From Natronocalculus amylovorans (GTDB lineage: Archaea > Halobacteriota > Halobacteria > Halobacteriales > Haloferacaceae), in contig NZ_JAKRVX010000001.1 of NCBI RefSeq assembly GCF_023638035.1, positions 434,001 to 498,000 on the forward strand: DNA of 64,000 bases. Reading direction: 5' to 3'. Both the position numbers and the translations under genes were made by a program. The notes below the pieces were generated by a model. That model had not been told where the DNA came from. It did not search any database and saw nothing but the letters and a program-made list of their open reading frames with translations. Of the stretch, positions 25,732 to 35,205 are shown piece after piece (the first letter of the stretch is position 1; the number at the start of each line of letters is the position of its first letter).

Positions 25732-27492
25732 ATGAGTCAAGCAACAGAAACCGACACCGACGGAAGCGGTGTCATTCAAAGCGTCAGTGGTCCGGTCGTG
25801 ACCGCTCGCGATCTCGATGCCCGGATGAACGACGTCGTCTACGTGGGCGACGAAGGGCTAATGGGTGAAGCGATTGAGATCGAGGGCAACCTCACGACCA
25901 TTCAGGTGTATGAGGAGACCTCAGGCGTCGGCCCAGGTGAACCCGTTGTAAACACGGGCGAGCCGCTTACGGTCGACCTTGGTCCAGGGATTCTTGATGC
26001 CATCTATGATGGTGTCCAGCGTCCATTGGATGTCCTAGAGGAGAAAATGAAGAGCCCGTTCCTTGACCGTGGTGTTGACGCACCCGGGATTTCGCTCGAG
26101 AAACAGTGGGAATTCAAGCCAACTGTTTCTGAGGGCGACACGGTCGAGGCAGGCGACGTTGTGGGAATCGTTAAAGAGACGGTCAGTATCGACCATAAGG
26201 TCATGGTACCACCGAACTTCGAAGGCGGAGAGGTTGTTGCCATCGAGGCTGGTAACTTCAACGTGACCGAAACCGTTGTCGAACTGGGCAACGGCGAGGA
26301 AGTCACAATGCGTCAGGAGTGGCCCGTTCGGAAAGCCCGACCAGCCGTCGAAAAGAAAACCCCACGAACCCCGCTCGTCTCCGGACAGCGGATTCTTGAT
26401 GGGTTGTTCCCGATCGCAAAAGGCGGTACCGCAGCAATTCCTGGTCCATTCGGATCCGGAAAAACAGTCACGCAGCACCAGCTTGCAAAGTATGCGGACG
26501 CAGACATTATCGTCTATGTTGGCTGTGGTGAGCGTGGCAATGAGATGACAGAGGTTATTGAGGACTTCCCAGAGCTGGAAGATCCAAAAACCGGGAACCC
26601 ACTGATGGCCCGGACCTCGCTCATTGCAAACACCTCAAACATGCCTGTCGCGGCTCGTGAGTCCTGTATCTACACCGGAATTACGATTGCGGAGTTCTAC
26701 CGTGACATGGGATACGACGTTGCGCTGATGGCAGACTCCACCTCACGGTGGGCAGAGGCAATGCGCGAGATCTCCTCGCGTCTCGAAGAGATGCCTGGTG
26801 AGGAAGGGTACCCGGCATATCTCTCAGCACGTCTCTCGCAGTTCTACGAGCGTGCAGGCTACTTCGAGAACATTAATGGAACCGAAGGGTCCGTTTCTGC
26901 GATCGGTGCGGTCTCACCACCTGGTGGGGACTTCTCCGAGCCAGTGACACAGAACACACTTCGTATTGTGAAAACGTTCTGGGCGCTGGATGCAGACCTT
27001 GCAGAGCGGCGTCACTTCCCATCGATTAACTGGAACGAGTCGTACTCGCTCTACCGTGAGCAGCTCGACCCATGGTTCACCGAGAACGTCACTGAAGACT
27101 GGGCAGAGATCCGTCAGTGGGCGATTGACATCCTCGACGAAGAGAGCGAACTTCAAGAGATCGTTCAGCTTGTCGGGAAGGATGCACTCCCAGAGGATCA
27201 ACAGCTCACCCTTGAGGTTGCACGGTACCTTCGAGAAGGATATCTCCAGCAGAACGCGTTCCACCCAACGGATACGTTCTGTCCACCGGAGAAAACATAC
27301 CTCATCCTGACCGCAGCACGAACCTTCTACGATGAAGCGTTCAAAGCGCTCGATAACGGTGTTCCAGTCGAGGAAATTCAGGCGATCGAATCGGTCCCAC
27401 GGATTAACCGTATCGGCGTCCAAGAAGACTACAACGAGTACGTCGAAGAGCTGAAAGACGATATTACCGACGACCTTCGGGGGCTCTACTAA
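25732..27492 (+). CDS. atpA: A-type ATP synthase catalytic subunit A
   Basis: The catalytic subunit hydrolyses or makes ATP. The 586-residue protein has the N-terminal barrel, the non-homologous insert typical of A/V-type A subunits, a P-loop GPFGSGKT at about 238-245, [10 protein letters not shown] with the catalytic glutamate region, and [34 protein letters not shown]. No intein interrupts the P-loop region, a frequent insertion site in other archaea. The length matches the family. It overlaps the atpB start by one base. Confidence 0.97.
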
Positions 27493-28907
27493 TGAAAGAA
27501 TACCAAACGATCACAGAGATTAGCGGTCCACTCGTGTACGCCGAGGTTGACGAACCGATCGGGTACGATGAGATGGTCGAGATCGAAACAGATGACGGAC
27601 GAACGCTCCGTGGACAAGTGCTTGAGTCCTCTGATGGGCTTGTTGCAATCCAAGTTTTCGAGGGAACAACCGGTATCGATCGGAAAGCATCTGTTCGATT
27701 CCTCGGTGAGACCCTAAAACTACCTGTGACCGAGGATCTCCTCGGACGCGTGATGGATGGGTCGGGCCAACCGATCGACGATGGGCCTGAGATTGTACCC
27801 GAAGAGCGCCGAAATATTATCGGTGCTGCAATCAACCCATACTCGCGTGAGTACCCAGAGGAGTTTATCCAAACCGGAGTCTCCGCAATTGATGGGATGA
27901 ACACGCTTGTGCGTGGGCAGAAACTGCCGATTTTCTCGGCATCCGGACTGCCGCACAACGATCTTGCGCTCCAGATTGCTCGTCAGGCAACGGTGCCTGA
28001 GGACGACACAGACGATGAGGGATCGGAGTTCGCGGTTGTCTTCGGTGCAATGGGAATCACTGCAGAAGAGGCAAACGAGTTCATGGAGGACTTCGAGCGC
28101 ACAGGTGCGCTTGAACGATCGGTTGTCTTCATGAATCTTGCAGACGACCCTGCAGTCGAGCGAACAGTGACCCCGCGTCTTGCACTGACGACCGCGGAGT
28201 ACCTAGCGTTCGACAAAGACTACCACGTGCTTGTGATCCTGACGGACATGACGAACTACTGTGAGGCGCTCCGTGAGATCGGTGCGGCTCGTGAGGAGGT
28301 TCCAGGCCGTCGTGGATATCCAGGATACATGTACACAGACCTTGCACAGCTGTATGAGCGTGCAGGTCGAATTGAGGGCCGTGACGGATCGGTGACGCAG
28401 ATTCCGATTCTCACCATGCCGGGTGACGACGATACGCACCCGATTCCGGACCTAACTGGCTACATTACCGAGGGGCAGATCTACATCGATCGGAACCTCA
28501 ACAGCCAAGGTGTCCGGCCGCCGATTAACCCGCTTCCAAGCCTTTCGCGGCTGATGGACGACGGTATCGGCGAGGGCCTAACGCGTGGAGACCACGCTGA
28601 TGTCTCCGATCAGATGTATGCTGCATACGCAGAGGGTGAGGACCTTCGTGACCTTGTGAACATTGTTGGCCGTGAAGCGCTCAGCGAGCGTGACAACAAA
28701 TATCTCGACTTCGCAGAACGCTTTGAAGACGAGTTCGTTCAGCAAGGCTTCGATACCGATCGATCGATCGAAGAAACGCTTTCAATCGGCTGGGAACTGC
28801 TCAGCGATCTGCCGAAGGCAGAGCTCAACCGTATTGATGAAGAGCTGATCGAAGAGTACTACGTCGAAGACGAAACCGAAGACGCTGCGGAAGTCACCGC
28901 AGACTAA
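27492..28907 (+). CDS. atpB: A-type ATP synthase regulatory subunit B
   Basis: Subunit B alternates with A in the catalytic head and has no functional P-loop; here the corresponding segment is [19 protein letters not shown]. Other signatures are [24 protein letters not shown] and [60 protein letters not shown]. It is 471 residues long with an acidic tail. A T-rich stretch (TTTTTCTTTTAAAT, about 28916-28929) follows the stop and could terminate transcription. In most haloarchaea I recall, atpD follows closely; here the eut genes intervene. Confidence 0.97.
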
Positions 28908-28915
28908 TCGGGATT

Positions 28916-28929
28916 TTTCTTTTAAATCG
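28916..28929 (+). terminator. Possible T-rich terminator after atpB
   Basis: TTTTTCTTTTAAAT starts 8 bases after the atpB stop. Archaeal RNA polymerase can terminate at T-rich runs. This would separate the main atp message from the eut block. Confidence 0.4.
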
Positions 28930-29000
28930 AACGCCGGAGAGTGACAATACTACAGAAATTTCTCGTCTACAACTGCAGTTGTGTAAGGAACGGTGAGCAG

Positions 29001-29006
29001 TTAAGC
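29001..29006 (+). promoter_or_regulatory. TATA-like box of eutB
   Basis: TTAAGC lies 24-29 bases before the ATG at 29030. It indicates that the eut block has its own promoter. Confidence 0.4.
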
Positions 29007-29029
29007 ACGAGACTGTGGTTTGGTATATC

Positions 29030-30391
29030 ATGTCGATTCAGACTACAGTTGGGGGTGATACATTCGAGTTCGACACCGTCAAAACGGTGTTAGCAAAGGC
29101 AAATGAACCAAAGACCGGCGATGAGTTAGCGGGGATTGCTGCAGGTTCAGATGCAGAGCGTGTCGCTGCAAAACGGACGCTAGCAGAGATGCGGCTTGAG
29201 ACACTCCGAGAAAACCCTGTCGTACCGTACGATCAGGATGAAGTTACGCGTGTGATCCAAGATGTCGTTCGAGAGCCGGTGTACGATCGGATAAAAGGTT
29301 GGACCGTTGCGGAGCTGCGTGAGTATCTGGTACGCGAAGACGTAGGCGATCGAGAGATTAGCGCGATCCGCCCGGGGCTGACAAGCGAGATGATCGCCGC
29401 AGTAGCGAAGCTCATGTCGAACATGGATCTCGTATTAGTCACGTCGAAGATGGAAGTGACTGCACGGTGTAACACCACAGTTGGAAAAGCGGGAACCTTG
29501 TCATTCCGACTTCAACCAAACGATCCATCGGATACTATTGAACGGATTATTGACTCGACTCGTGAAGGACTCTCTTATGGGGTCGGTGATGCAGTAATTG
29601 GGATCAATCCGGTTGAAGACAGTGTCGCAACAACAACCGCGATTTTAGAGGCAACACACGAATTTATTGAAGAATGGAATATCCCGACACAGAACTGCTG
29701 TCTCTCACATATTACGACACAGATGGACGCTGTTCGAGAGGGCGCACCTGCGCATATGCTCTTCCAAAGCCTCGCTGGAACTGAGGCAGGCAATGATGAG
29801 TTCGGCGTTGATGTCGAAATGTTAGACGAGGCGTATGAGCTTGGGAAAAAAGCGTGCGTCTCAACAGGGCCGAATATCATGTACTTCGAAACCGGACAAG
29901 GGTCGGAGCTATCCGGAGACGCACATCACGACGTTGACCAGGTAACGCTTGAGTCGCGATGCTATGGGCTTGCAAAGCGGTATGAACCGTTCTTGGTCAA
30001 CACAGTTGTCGGATTCATCGGACCGGAGTATCTGTATGATGGTCGCCAAGTAATCCGAGCAGGGTTAGAGGATGTGTTTATGGGACAGCTCCATGGTATC
30101 TCGATGGGAATCGATGCCTGTTACACAAATCACATTCAAGCAGACCAAAACGATATTGAGAACCTCGCAGTTCTGCTTACCGCCGCCGGAGCCAACTACT
30201 TCATTACTGTTCCGATGGGTGATGATGTGATGTTAAACTACCAGTCGAACAGCTACCATGATGCAGCAGCGTTATGGGAAATTTTTGACTGTGGACCAAC
30301 CGAGCCGTTCCGAGAGTGGCTCGAAACAATGGGCATCTGGAAAGATGGGTCACTCACACCAACTGCAGGCGACCCGACGATCTTTACATAA
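29030..30391 (+). CDS. eutB: Ethanolamine ammonia-lyase large subunit
   Basis: EutB is the catalytic subunit of the adenosylcobalamin-dependent lyase that turns ethanolamine into acetaldehyde and ammonia. The protein has about 453 residues, the usual EutB length. Typical segments: ELAGIAAGSDAERVAAKRTLAEMRLETLRENPVVPYDQDEVTRVI near the start; LMSNMDLVLVTSKMEVTARCNTTVGKAGTLSFRLQPNDPSD; GDAVIGINPVEDSV; TGPNIMYFETGQGSELSGDAHHDVDQVTLESRCYGLAKRY; and GFIGPEYLYDGRQVIRAGLEDVFMGQLHGISMGIDACYTNHIQADQND. All visible active-site regions are intact. The ATG at 29030 has a TATA-like box upstream. It is placed between atpB and atpD, which is unusual. Codon use looks like its neighbours. Confidence 0.95.
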   Translation: MSIQTTVGGDTFEFDTVKTVLAKANEPKTGDELAGIAAGSDAERVAAKRTLAEMRLETLRENPVVPYDQDEVTRVIQDVVREPVYDRIKGWTVAELREYLVREDVGDREISAIRPGLTSEMIAAVAKLMSNMDLVLVTSKMEVTARCNTTVGKAGTLSFRLQPNDPSDTIERIIDSTREGLSYGVGDAVIGINPVEDSVATTTAILEATHEFIEEWNIPTQNCCLSHITTQMDAVREGAPAHMLFQSLAGTEAGNDEFGVDVEMLDEAYELGKKACVSTGPNIMYFETGQGSELSGDAHHDVDQVTLESRCYGLAKRYEPFLVNTVVGFIGPEYLYDGRQVIRAGLEDVFMGQLHGISMGIDACYTNHIQADQNDIENLAVLLTAAGANYFITVPMGDDVMLNYQSNSYHDAAALWEIFDCGPTEPFREWLETMGIWKDGSLTPTAGDPTIFT

Positions 30392-30395
30392 ATTC

Positions 30396-31148
30396 ATGTC
30401 AACACCAAACACACCCACCGAACCGATCGACCCGGATCGTCTCAAAGAAATTATTGACCGAAATCCCTCACGGCTCGGTATCGGTCGCTCAGGGCCACGT
30501 CCGAAAACAAGCGATTTACTGACGTTCCGTGCAGATCATGGCCGCGCACGCGATGCAGTCTGGACACGGGTAAGCGACGATCTCATTGAGGAATTGGGAT
30601 TGTATCGGATTCAGACCGCTGTTGCCGATAAAGACCAGTATCTGGCACGCCCAGATCTAGGGAGATCGCTTTCAGATGAGACGATCGAATCGCTCAAAAC
30701 AGACTGCATCAACGAGCCACAGGTGCAAGTCATTGTCAGCGATGGATTGAGTTCAACAGCGGTAGAGACGAACTCCAAGGACCTACTTGCAAGTTTGAAT
30801 GATGGATTACAGCAGCGTGGAATCGAGACGGGGACCCCGATATTTGTTGAGTTCGGTCGCGTTGATGTGATGGATGCGATCGGTGAAGAGCTAGGTGCGG
30901 AGGCCTGTGTGAATCTAATCGGGGAGCGCCCAGGACTAGCAACTGCAGAGAGCCTGAGTGCATATTTTGTTTATAATCCAAAGCGAGGCACACCAACCGC
31001 AAAGAAATCCGTCATCTCAAACATCCATGCAGGTGGGTTACCACCAGTCGAGGCAGGAGCACAGGTTGCGGAGCTGCTCACAGAGATGCTTGAGAAACGC
31101 GCCAGCGGGCTCGATCTCCGCGAAGACGATCGGAGCTTCCAAAAATGA
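30396..31148 (+). CDS. eutC: Ethanolamine ammonia-lyase small subunit
   Basis: EutC completes the lyase and provides part of the cobalamin-binding surface. The protein has about 250 residues, shorter than the roughly 295 of enterobacteria, mainly because of a short N-terminal region. Signatures: RLGIGRSGPRPKTSDLLTFRADHGRARDAVWTRV, VQVIVSDGLSSTAVETN, GTPIFVEFGRVDVMDAIGEELGAEACVNLIGERPGLATAESLSAYFVYNPKRGTPTAKKSVISNIHAGGLPPVEAG. The ATG at 30396 is 4 bases past the eutB stop. An upstream frame overlapping eutB is rejected because the ATG has a proper position and homology begins after it. Confidence 0.94.
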   Translation: MSTPNTPTEPIDPDRLKEIIDRNPSRLGIGRSGPRPKTSDLLTFRADHGRARDAVWTRVSDDLIEELGLYRIQTAVADKDQYLARPDLGRSLSDETIESLKTDCINEPQVQVIVSDGLSSTAVETNSKDLLASLNDGLQQRGIETGTPIFVEFGRVDVMDAIGEELGAEACVNLIGERPGLATAESLSAYFVYNPKRGTPTAKKSVISNIHAGGLPPVEAGAQVAELLTEMLEKRASGLDLREDDRSFQK

Positions 31149-31168
31149 AACAATGAAGCAATGAAACA
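31149..31168 (+). repeat. Octamer-like repeats at the eutC-eutA junction
   Basis: From just before the eutC stop to the eutA start codon, copies of AATGAARC follow each other three times (about 31144-31167), ending in the GTG of eutA. The two ATGs inside open frames of only a few codons. The repeat could change length by slippage and alter the spacing of eutA translation. Confidence 0.45.
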
Positions 31169-32653
31169 GTGACGTTCGGAATACACACTGAGGGTCCAGA
31201 GTCGCTTTTGAGTGTTGGGATCGACGTTGGAACGACCACAACACAAGTGATTGTCAGTCGGCTCACCGTCGAAAGCGGGGTTGGTAACAATAAGCGACAG
31301 GTTACCGATCGAGAGGTGCTGTACCGAAGTCCGGTGTTTGAAACACCGCTTTGTGACCACAAAACAATTGATATTACCGGTGTTGCAGACATTGTTCAGC
31401 AGTGTTTCAATGAGGCAGAAATTACAGCCGCAGCGATTGATACCGGTGCGGTCATTGTGACTGGCGAAACCGCTCGCCGCGCAAATGCGACGACACTTGT
31501 CGAACACGTCGCAAAGGAAAGCGGTGAGTTTGTGGCTGCGGCCGCGGGCGCGTCACTCGAAGCGGTACTTGCAGGCCGCGGCTCGGGCGCAGCAGCGCAT
31601 GCAGCGGAGACGGACAGCACTGTCGTAAACGTCGATATCGGTGGTGGCACAACCAATGCAGCAGTGTTCGTCGGCGACCGTGTTGTTGAGACACGGTGTT
31701 GTAATATTGGTGGCAGGCTCATTTCTTTTGACACTGATGGTGTCGTCACCGCTATTTCACCATCGATCGAGCCACTGCTTTCGGAAATCGGATTTGAGGT
31801 ACGCATTGGAGAGACACTCACTGAGAACAACAAGCGACAGATTGCTGATCGAATGGCTGCGTATGTCGTTGATCTGCTTGTGGGACCACCATATGAGCCA
31901 ATAACGGAATCCATCGCAATCGGTGAGCTTCCAACAGCGTCCCGATCATACGACACAGTCGTGTTTAGCGGCGGTATTGGGGCACTCATGGGTGAGTACG
32001 AGACGCAAACACACGAGAAGACGGTTGCATACAATGACATTGGAGTAGAGCTGGCGGCGGCAATTGAACGCCATCGCACAGTCCACTCATGGCCGGTAAG
32101 AAGCTTCGGAGAACATCAGCACGCAACAGTGATCGGTGCAGGAACCGCAACAACACAGCTGACCGGGCGGACCCAATCAATCACAGGCCAACTGTTACCA
32201 ATCCGAGACGCGCCGGTTGTGAGTGTTGGTGCCATTGATTCGATCGGCACAAAAAAAGAGCTCACAGAAACACTCACTGCTGCCCGCGATCGAGGAGCCG
32301 ATCTATATGAGGCGATGTTGCAACCAGATGGGGAACCAGGAGCGTCAAACACGCCACCACTCGTCCTCTCGATCGACTCCATTGGCGTTCTCTCATATGA
32401 CCGGCTCAATATGATTGCAGCGTCGATCGCAGCGACATATACGGAACCCACAGAACCGATCGTGATTGCGTTAAAAGACAATTGTGGGAAAGCGCTTGGG
32501 CAAACACTGCAGCGAGTGCTGCCGGAATCGCAGCCGGTTGTAGTTATTGATGAGGTGGCTGTTTCCGACGGCGACTATATCGATATTGGAGAACCGATCG
32601 CAGATGACGATACGGTCGTCGTCGCTGTAAAGACGCTCATCTTTGGAGAGTAG
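31169..32653 (+). CDS. eutA: Ethanolamine ammonia-lyase reactivating factor EutA
   Basis: EutA is an ATP-dependent chaperone that replaces damaged cobalamin in the EutBC lyase. The 494-residue protein has an actin/Hsp70-type ATPase fold: phosphate-1 motif LLSVGIDVGTTTTQVIVSRL near residue 14, VVNVDIGGGTTNAAVFVGDRV as phosphate-2, and TVVFSGGIGALMG as the adenosine motif. It starts with GTG 20 bases after eutC. Its presence beside eutBC strongly supports a working B12 lyase, since the reactivase has no other known role. No eutL/M/N/K/S shell genes, eutD/E/G enzymes or ethanolamine permease are in the window. Confidence 0.92.
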   Translation: MTFGIHTEGPESLLSVGIDVGTTTTQVIVSRLTVESGVGNNKRQVTDREVLYRSPVFETPLCDHKTIDITGVADIVQQCFNEAEITAAAIDTGAVIVTGETARRANATTLVEHVAKESGEFVAAAAGASLEAVLAGRGSGAAAHAAETDSTVVNVDIGGGTTNAAVFVGDRVVETRCCNIGGRLISFDTDGVVTAISPSIEPLLSEIGFEVRIGETLTENNKRQIADRMAAYVVDLLVGPPYEPITESIAIGELPTASRSYDTVVFSGGIGALMGEYETQTHEKTVAYNDIGVELAAAIERHRTVHSWPVRSFGEHQHATVIGAGTATTQLTGRTQSITGQLLPIRDAPVVSVGAIDSIGTKKELTETLTAARDRGADLYEAMLQPDGEPGASNTPPLVLSIDSIGVLSYDRLNMIAASIAATYTEPTEPIVIALKDNCGKALGQTLQRVLPESQPVVVIDEVAVSDGDYIDIGEPIADDDTVVVAVKTLIFGE

Positions 32654-32682
32654 CGGGCTGTGGGCTGCCGGACGAACTGAAA

Positions 32683-32690
32683 AGCTTTAC
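32683..32690 (+). promoter_or_regulatory. TATA-like box of atpD
   Basis: AGCTTTAC lies 31-38 bases before the atpD ATG. It suggests that atpD can be transcribed separately from the genes upstream. Confidence 0.4.
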
Positions 32691-32720
32691 CCTCCTTGCC
32701 GAACAAGCGGGCGATAAGAG

Positions 32721-33416
32721 ATGGCCGAGGACGTCAAACCAACCCGAAAGAACCTAATGGCGATCGAGGACCGCATTGAGCTGTCCGAGCGAGGTCACGA
32801 CACGCTAGAACAGAAGCGTGACGGCCTCATCATGGAGTTTATGGACATCCTTGATCAGGCCCAAGACGTGCGATCGGAACTCAACAGCGACTACGAAACT
32901 GCCCAGCGCAAACTCAACATGGCGCGCGCAATGGAGGGTGACGTTGCTGTTCGAGGTGCTGCAGCTGCACTGCAGGAACACCCAGAGATCACAACTCAGT
33001 CGAAGAACATCATGGGTGTTGTCGTGCCGCAGATTGAGTCAACCAAAGTTAGGAAAAACCTCAGCGAGCGTGGCTACGGACTGCTTGGCTCCTCAGCACG
33101 GATTGATGAGGCAGCAGATGCCTACGAAGAGCTGCTTGAGACAATCATCCTCGCAGCAGAGGTTGAAACGGCAATGAAAAAGATGCTCGAGGAGATTGAG
33201 ACGACAAAACGGCGTGTAAACGCGCTTGAATTTAAATTGCTTCCAGATCTCTACGAGAACCAAGACTTCATTGAACAGAAACTCGAAGAGCAAGAGCGCG
33301 AGGAGATCTTCCGCCTGAAAAAGATCAAGGGCAAAAAGGAAGAACAAGAGCGTGAGGAACGCGAAAAAGAAGCGCAAGCACAAGCGGAACGAGAAGCCGC
33401 AGTTTCGGCCGACTGA
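32721..33416 (+). CDS. atpD: A-type ATP synthase subunit D
   Basis: Subunit D is the coiled-coil central shaft that turns inside the A3B3 head. The 231-residue protein starts [42 protein letters not shown], forms two long helices joined by a short middle region, and has the conserved return helix [33 protein letters not shown]. The acidic/basic tail ([26 protein letters not shown]) is haloarchaeal style. It is split from the rest of the synthase genes by the eutBCA block and has its own likely promoter. Confidence 0.95.
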
Positions 33417-34101: not shown

Positions 34102-35205
34102 ATGGAGCAAATAATGACAACATCTGATCCGTCAGTGACGACCGGTCGACGACGATCGTTCCTCAAAGCAGCAGGTATTCTCGGTGCGACAGTCGCATTT
34201 GGAGGAGCCGCAGGAGCACAGATAGAAGATGACGACAACGATGATGATCCAGGAGCAGGAGATGACAACGGTGATGATGACCCGACAGAGCCAAATGGAA
34301 ACGGTGTAGAGACGGACGATATTACGGGAATTGATGGACTACAGACAATCGAAGGTGACGGCGATTTTGACGATGTTCTCGAAGCGGTTGAAGATGCAGT
34401 CGAAGATAGTGATGGGTTCGACCTTCGGACAACGCTCAATTACAGCGACGAAGCAGATGACGCTGATGTAGAGATTCCATCGACAGCGATCGTCTATGCA
34501 ACGGACGAACTATTAAATGCGCAGCTGCTCGAAGAAAGCCGTGCGATCGGACTTGAACTTCCATACCGCTTCCTTGTGTGGGAGGATGATGGGTCTGCAG
34601 ATGACGATGAAGCCGACAATGGACCCGTTGATGAAGATGATGAGGAGGATGATGACCCAGTTGGTGACAACGATGAGAACGGTGAGAACGATGAGGATGA
34701 AGAAGGCGACGAAGATGATGAAGATGAACAGGAGGCAACCACATACGTTACGTGGACAACGGCTGCATACCTCTTCGATCGGTACGGCGTAGAGGTAAGC
34801 GATGACCTGACTGAAGAGATAAATGACGCTGCCGAAACGCTTGCAGGAGGAGAACCAGTCGAAGACTACGACGTTGATTTAGAAGATGACGAACCTGACG
34901 ACGATGACGATGATACGGTAGACGACGATGACGATGATCCGGTAGACGACGATGACGATGATCCGGTAGACGACGATGACGATGATCCGGTGGACGACGA
35001 TGACGATGATCCGGTGGACGACGATGACGATGATCCGGTAGACGACGATGACGAACCAGGAGATGGTCCGGGTGATGAAGATGGAAACGGTGACGGACCA
35101 GGTGACGACCCAGGCGATGGAAATGGCAACGGAAACGGCGACGGACCAGGTGACGACCCAGGCGATAGAAATGGCAACGGAAACGGCGACGGACCCGGGA
35201 ACTAA
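34102..35205 (+). CDS. Tat-exported DUF302-domain protein with acidic tandem repeats
   Basis: The protein has 367 residues. A twin-arginine signal (TTGRRRSFLKAAGILGATVAFGGAAGA) indicates export in folded form. The central region matches the DUF302 pattern: LEAVEDAVEDSDGFDLRTTLNY, IVYATDELLNAQLLEESRAIGLELPYRFLVWED and YVTWTTAAYLFDRYGV. An insert of about 50 mostly Asp/Glu residues splits the domain. The tail has six full repeats of VDDDDDDP (24 bases each, 34897-35040) and then two 48-base copies of a Gly/Asn/Asp/Pro module (35101-35196). The repeats are very similar at the DNA level, so copy number may vary. A hairpin follows the gene. The role of the domain is unknown. Confidence 0.8.
   Translation: MEQIMTTSDPSVTTGRRRSFLKAAGILGATVAFGGAAGAQIEDDDNDDDPGAGDDNGDDDPTEPNGNGVETDDITGIDGLQTIEGDGDFDDVLEAVEDAVEDSDGFDLRTTLNYSDEADDADVEIPSTAIVYATDELLNAQLLEESRAIGLELPYRFLVWEDDGSADDDEADNGPVDEDDEEDDDPVGDNDENGENDEDEEGDEDDEDEQEATTYVTWTTAAYLFDRYGVEVSDDLTEEINDAAETLAGGEPVEDYDVDLEDDEPDDDDDDTVDDDDDDPVDDDDDDPVDDDDDDPVDDDDDDPVDDDDDDPVDDDDEPGDGPGDEDGNGDGPGDDPGDGNGNGNGDGPGDDPGDRNGNGNGDGPGN
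34897..35054 (+). repeat. 24-bp tandem repeat coding for VDDDDDDP
   Basis: Six complete 24-base units and one partial unit run from 34897 to about 35054. Units differ mostly by ACG/CCG in the first copy and GTA/GTG at the end of the unit. They are in frame and stay within the exported protein. Confidence 0.85.
35101..35196 (+). repeat. 48-bp direct repeat, two copies
   Basis: Two adjacent 48-base copies code for GDDPGDGNGNGNGDGP-type modules and differ at about two positions. They lie directly after the aspartate repeats, near the C-terminus of the same protein. Confidence 0.8.

Follow-up and report, generated by a model that had tools for sequence, protein, structure and literature searches.

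Ethanolamine ammonia-lyase genes at the recurrently filled atpB-atpD junction of the haloarchaeal ATP synthase locus

In the 64-kb stretch of Natronocalculus amylovorans DNA analysed here (the window), three unbroken open reading frames are sandwiched between two genes of the archaeal A-type ATP synthase, all on the + strand, in the region 28908-32720. The left edge of the interval is atpB, encoding subunit B (27492-28907; TIGR01041, 5.9e-257), and the right edge is atpD, encoding subunit D (32721-33416; Pfam PF01813, ATP-synt_D, 6.1e-59). Between them lie eutB (29030-30391), encoding the large subunit of ethanolamine ammonia-lyase (453 aa; PF06751, 1e-202), eutC (30396-31148), encoding the small subunit (250 aa; PF05985, 1.1e-81), and eutA (31169-32653), encoding a lyase-reactivating factor of the actin-like ATPase family (494 aa; PF06277, 5.4e-127). 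Reading frames and Pfam, and NCBIfam for EutB, EutC and subunit B, agree here with a preliminary description of this DNA, which had placed a complete EutB, EutC and EutA between atpB and atpD on the same strand.

EutB and EutC are full-length and scored above cut-off in NCBIfam as well as Pfam; for EutC the NCBIfam model was NF003971, and chain B of PDB 3any matched at 2.3e-66. EutA scored 425 bits against PF06277 (positions 1-474 of 475) and fell below the curated NCBIfam cut-offs, with 351 bits for the best EutA model where 598 are needed and lower scores for the other EutA models. It is a member of the EutA family by Pfam, not an NCBIfam equivalog, and its sequence gave no match to solved structures. 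EutB keeps R160, Q162, N193, E287, F329 and D362, the residues by which E. coli EutB binds its substrate. These residues are invariant in 54-55 of the 55 aligned EutB sequences, and the loss of active-site residues, which the preliminary description had named as a reason to doubt the lyase, is not seen in the alignment. EutB matches the solved structures PDB 2qez and 3abo by sequence, with the 3abo alignment in register. The eut genes look functional, and EutBC would be expected to act on ethanolamine.

Just past the atpB stop codon lies a T-rich run, TTTTTCTTTT (28914-28925, + strand), a candidate archaeal terminator from its sequence; such a run is not consistently long among the relatives. 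Farther downstream, an operator-like stretch followed by a TATA-like TTAAGC (29001-29006) makes up the eutB upstream element (28965-29006, + strand), and the operator-like part contains the perfect palindrome ACAACTGCAGTTGT at 28969-28982. A 42-bp weight matrix was trained on 23 other haloarchaeal eutB upstream regions with the window excluded; its seed, a stretch of the Natrialbaceae locus L032, was chosen after the window's upstream sequence had been viewed beside those of its relatives, which makes the match a scored comparison and not an unbiased discovery. The matrix consensus, t.ca.CAAct...GTTTGGTAAc...t.aCAAAc..T.Aa, contains a GTTTG-N11-CAAAC inverted repeat. In a scan of both strands of the entire 64 kb, the matrix ranked 28965-29006 first, 65 bp before the eutB ATG. 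The window element scored 16.5 bits compared to roughly 25-43 for most relatives, with a degraded right half-site, and of the 39 other eutB upstream regions about 16, chiefly in more distant clades, lack the element. Spacing from this element supports ATG 29030 as the eutB start; an upstream GTG at 29015 is an alternative. The TTAAGC that had been proposed as the block's own promoter is present and ends the conserved 42-bp element. We infer that a promoter-like element travels with the eut genes, and that it may regulate them and set their transcription starts.

The preliminary description had held that atpD closely follows atpB in haloarchaea. This did not stand up to a survey of the 118 genomes of the family in which atpD was matched, with distances taken by hand from tables. 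atpB and atpD lie on one contig and strand in 100 of them, and the gap between the two genes is 1 kb or more in 57 of these 100 (≤500 bp in 41, 501-1000 bp in two, 1-10 kb in 55 and >10 kb in two). In eight further genomes the two genes share a contig but are widely separated or face in opposite directions; in ten they are on different contigs. In six genomes of one genus (G190, G042, G073, G089, G240 and G411; genus g8), atpD is oriented the other way and lies about 40-65 kb away from atpB, so that the ATP synthase locus is split. A second, distant AtpD homologue (31-37% identity), possibly from a second V/A-type ATPase, was seen in G349, G330, G358, G408, G141, G151, G154, G189 and G379.

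The junction between atpB and atpD proves to be a slot for repeated insertion, with varied contents among which phototrophy genes are so frequent as to suggest a phototrophy slot. Among the 26 filled junctions read besides that of the window, 18 carry phototrophy genes (bat, bop, lycopene cyclase, brp), including L148, L150, L151, L153-L155, L160, L161, L165, L170, L173, L177, L181, L184 and L193; in some cargo reading frames, bop and lycopene cyclase or brp were identified by tblastn. Other cargo among the 26 includes a metallophosphoesterase, a WD40 protein, an asparagine-synthase-like protein and unassigned genes. The slot of Halalkalirubrum salinum (G199; L145:5984-10897) holds acoABX-like genes for E1 alpha, E1 beta and an NAD-kinase-like protein, together with an oppositely oriented gene for an E2 acyltransferase-OsmC fusion, and that of halophilic archaeon SHRA6 (G074; L142:9500-10315, - strand) holds only a shortened lipoyl-OsmC remnant of this fusion. 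A glycerophosphotransferase/GDPD cluster is also present in three bop junctions. In these slots (L149, L150 and L153), the genes beside bop encode glycosyltransferase-like, CDP-glycerol glycerophosphotransferase, GDPD and nucleotidyltransferase/HAD-like proteins, an assemblage that resembles a glycerophosphate-polymer cluster.

Upstream of atpD, at 32679-32690 (+ strand), is an element GAAAAG-CTTTAC, a BRE followed by a TATA-like sequence. An element of this GAAAAG-N-TTAAC type (GAAAAGCTTTAC in the window) precedes atpD by a nearly constant distance in 49 of 51 family genomes, of which 43 fit a strict pattern, compared to 3.4% in shuffles, and six are variants recognised by eye. Empty and filled junctions alike keep it, and in the two genomes outside this pattern atpB and atpD are 30-33 bp apart. 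In the window, the eutA stop codon is 67 bp before atpD, and the intact element fits in between. Because this promoter-like element is conserved regardless of the upstream cargo, atpD is very probably a transcription unit of its own; the promoter that had been suggested for it at 32683-32690 falls within the conserved element. We believe that it is this separate, conserved promoter of atpD that lets the slot accept insertions. eutBCA occupies the slot in one genome only, so this tolerance is argued from the other cargoes.

The nearest relatives of the window's AtpD are those of Halalkalirubrum salinum and SHRA6, both at 92% identity. In the tree of ATPase subunits, the window groups with the Halalkalirubrum pair, and this trio is then joined by three genomes with bop plus the glycerophosphate genes; the slot is filled in all six genomes of the clade. 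When the phototrophy label was mapped onto the ATPase tree, it required at least eight changes, each of which may be a gain or a loss. The bacteriorhodopsin gene was linked to H+-ATPase subunit genes in Haloarcula in 2007 (PMC1885257), and as far as our literature search shows, the slot had previously been tied in print to bacteriorhodopsin only. The Haloarcula arrangement resembles that of the window in that a cargo gene is linked to A-type ATPase subunit genes, and the bop genes of the relatives surveyed here occupy this very junction. The cargo there is a light-driven pump, whereas that of the window is an ethanolamine lyase.

The lyase was also described as normally known from bacteria, which implies that it is odd in an archaeon, an impression that its distribution corrects. 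EutB was found in 40 of the 391 sampled genomes of the class (about 10%), in 19 of 86 genera, and haloarchaeal EutBC sequences group together in a single, fully supported clade apart from the nearest bacterial ones, also when EutA is added. Recent direct transfer from bacteria was considered as a source and is out, given this fully supported clade, for a bacterial sample consisting of the closest matches only. Of the 20 named haloarchaeal loci examined, 19 have eutB, eutC and eutA together in a block of three genes; in the twentieth (L047), the contig ends inside eutC. eutA is inverted in three Halorubrum-type loci (L039-L041), and the neighbours of the block vary, including an aldehyde:ferredoxin oxidoreductase in Natrialbaceae, ABC transporters and a glutamine-synthetase-like gene. 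The Natrialbaceae oxidoreductase family gene, upstream of eutBCA at L032:4864-6543 and at the equivalent positions in L033-L035, is a plausible acetaldehyde partner. No other eut locus adjoins atp genes among the neighbourhoods read in 30 of the 40 eutB genomes, part of which extended only 1.5 kb on each side; an ancestral placement of eutBCA at this locus in most haloarchaea, which the preliminary description had allowed for, thus finds no counterpart in the loci examined. In the literature searched for the ethanolamine lyase, we found no dedicated account: one incidental mention with haloarchaea and none with halophilic archaea.

The earlier remark that no microcompartment genes accompany eutBCA extends well beyond the window, since shell proteins of bacterial microcompartments (BMC; PF00936) were found in none of the 40 eutB-bearing haloarchaeal genomes, the present one included. 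A BMC-free lineage of ethanolamine lyases is thus spread across the haloarchaea. The genome gave no match to the EutH transporter, and no ethanolamine permease is evident beside eutBCA; several members of the general amino-acid-permease family are encoded in the genome. It also encodes a cobalamin adenosyltransferase (PF01923) and three proteins of the aldehyde:ferredoxin oxidoreductase (AOR) family that could take acetaldehyde. The window system is like the adenosylcobalamin-dependent EutBC with its reactivase EutA (solved EutB structures 3abo and 2qez) in its three proteins, their gene families and the active-site residues; it differs in belonging to the haloarchaeal clade, in its place in an ATP synthase locus, and in lacking a microcompartment as well as any nearby EutH or further eut gene. 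BMC-independent ethanolamine catabolism, with eutBC used in the absence of a metabolosome, is reported for Acinetobacter baumannii (PMC9426561); the window system would resemble it in a BMC-free use of eutBC, and the Acinetobacter one is bacterial.

The explanation in which we place good confidence is that eutBCA is a self-contained, BMC-free haloarchaeal cassette that sits in a recurrent slot between two independent ATP synthase transcription units. The cassette would consist of a promoter/operator and eutB-eutC-eutA. Of the two units, one would end with atpB and the other would be atpD with a promoter of its own; in relatives, the slot between them contains genes of bacteriorhodopsin phototrophy, acetoin-dehydrogenase-like genes or different cargo, or nothing at all. 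With adenosylcobalamin, EutBC would convert ethanolamine to acetaldehyde and ammonia in the open cytosol, and EutA would exchange damaged cofactor. The acetaldehyde could be oxidised by the aldehyde:ferredoxin oxidoreductases encoded elsewhere in the genome, and the ammonia could be assimilated.

Slot cargo is often related to energy metabolism, as with bacteriorhodopsin and the acetoin-dehydrogenase-like genes, and the site could for this reason have been selected because ethanolamine breakdown is functionally coupled to, or co-regulated with, ATP synthesis. We regard such coupling as improbable, as other cargo is unrelated (the WD40 protein, the metallophosphoesterase, the asparagine-synthase-like protein and the glycerophosphotransferase/GDPD genes), eutB and atpD have separate promoter-like elements, and none of the other eut loci examined adjoins atp genes. 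An error of assembly or binning would be a trivial source of the arrangement, and the genus is represented by a single genome in the sample, but we consider such an artefact very unlikely. The source genome (3.26 Mb in 20 contigs) is 99.2% complete and the eut locus lies well inside an 806-kb contig, which makes a contig-edge artefact unlikely; the GC content of the eut genes is near that of their neighbours, and the short eutA-atpD spacer retains an intact conserved atpD promoter.

How the cassette reached the slot is a matter of inference. In the sister genus Halalkalirubrum, eutBCA lies about 33 kb downstream of atpD on the same strand, beyond the block of matching gene order (window 20049-43730). 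In the EutBC tree, the window copy joins those of Natrialbaceae and of the Halorubrum type in a set that excludes Halalkalirubrum (support 100/98). An origin separate from that of the Halalkalirubrum copy is favoured by the best tree but falls short of proof; in AU tests, grouping the window copy with Halalkalirubrum gave p values of 0.16 (EutBC) and 0.22 (with EutA). We give roughly even odds to transfer into the slot from another haloarchaeal family, with a Natrialbaceae- or Halorubrum-like donor and independently of the Halalkalirubrum copy, which occupies an unrelated place about 33 kb off and outside the syntenic block. The AU tests do not reject the alternative grouping, however, and the window branch in the EutBC tree is long. 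Inheritance in a lineage shared with Halalkalirubrum, followed by a rearrangement that took eutBCA from the atp slot to the downstream site or the other way round, is a tentative second possibility. It would account for the presence of eutBCA in both genera on the same strand within about 35 kb of atpD and is compatible with the AU tests, but the best EutBC tree parts the two copies, and within the window the two places have no flanking genes in common. Base composition was also inspected for a foreign signature, and the eut genes showed no clear difference from their neighbours.

A hint of what the slot may have held before comes from the genome's own rhodopsins. Elsewhere in the genome are two rhodopsin genes that share about 30% identity with bop of the slot type. 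In one of them, a T replaces bacteriorhodopsin D85 (RYLTW); the other keeps D85 and has Y at D96 (RYIDW...LYLAM). T at D85 is a trait of halorhodopsins, and D85 combined with Y at D96 is a trait of sensory rhodopsins, so the pair look like one halorhodopsin and one sensory rhodopsin; from these two genes, the assembly has no clear bacteriorhodopsin. Such an absence would fit the loss of an older slot cargo, which is suggestive only. It is about an equal chance, in our estimate, that the junction is a long-lived slot, originally or often filled by a bop cluster and later refilled with promoter-bearing cassettes, and that in the window's lineage a proton-pump cargo was replaced by the ethanolamine lyase. 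The occupied slot is more noteworthy than the fact that an archaeon has the lyase: an essential ATP synthase locus is repeatedly interrupted at one point, between subunit genes with promoters of their own. This offers a tangible case in which to ask why some positions within housekeeping clusters repeatedly accept cargo, and how haloarchaea exchange light-driven and organic energy sources.

Immediately past the atp locus, at 34102-35205 of the window, is a gene for a DUF302 protein with a very acidic, repeat-rich tail (PVDDDDDD repeats), which is absent from this place in the sister genus.
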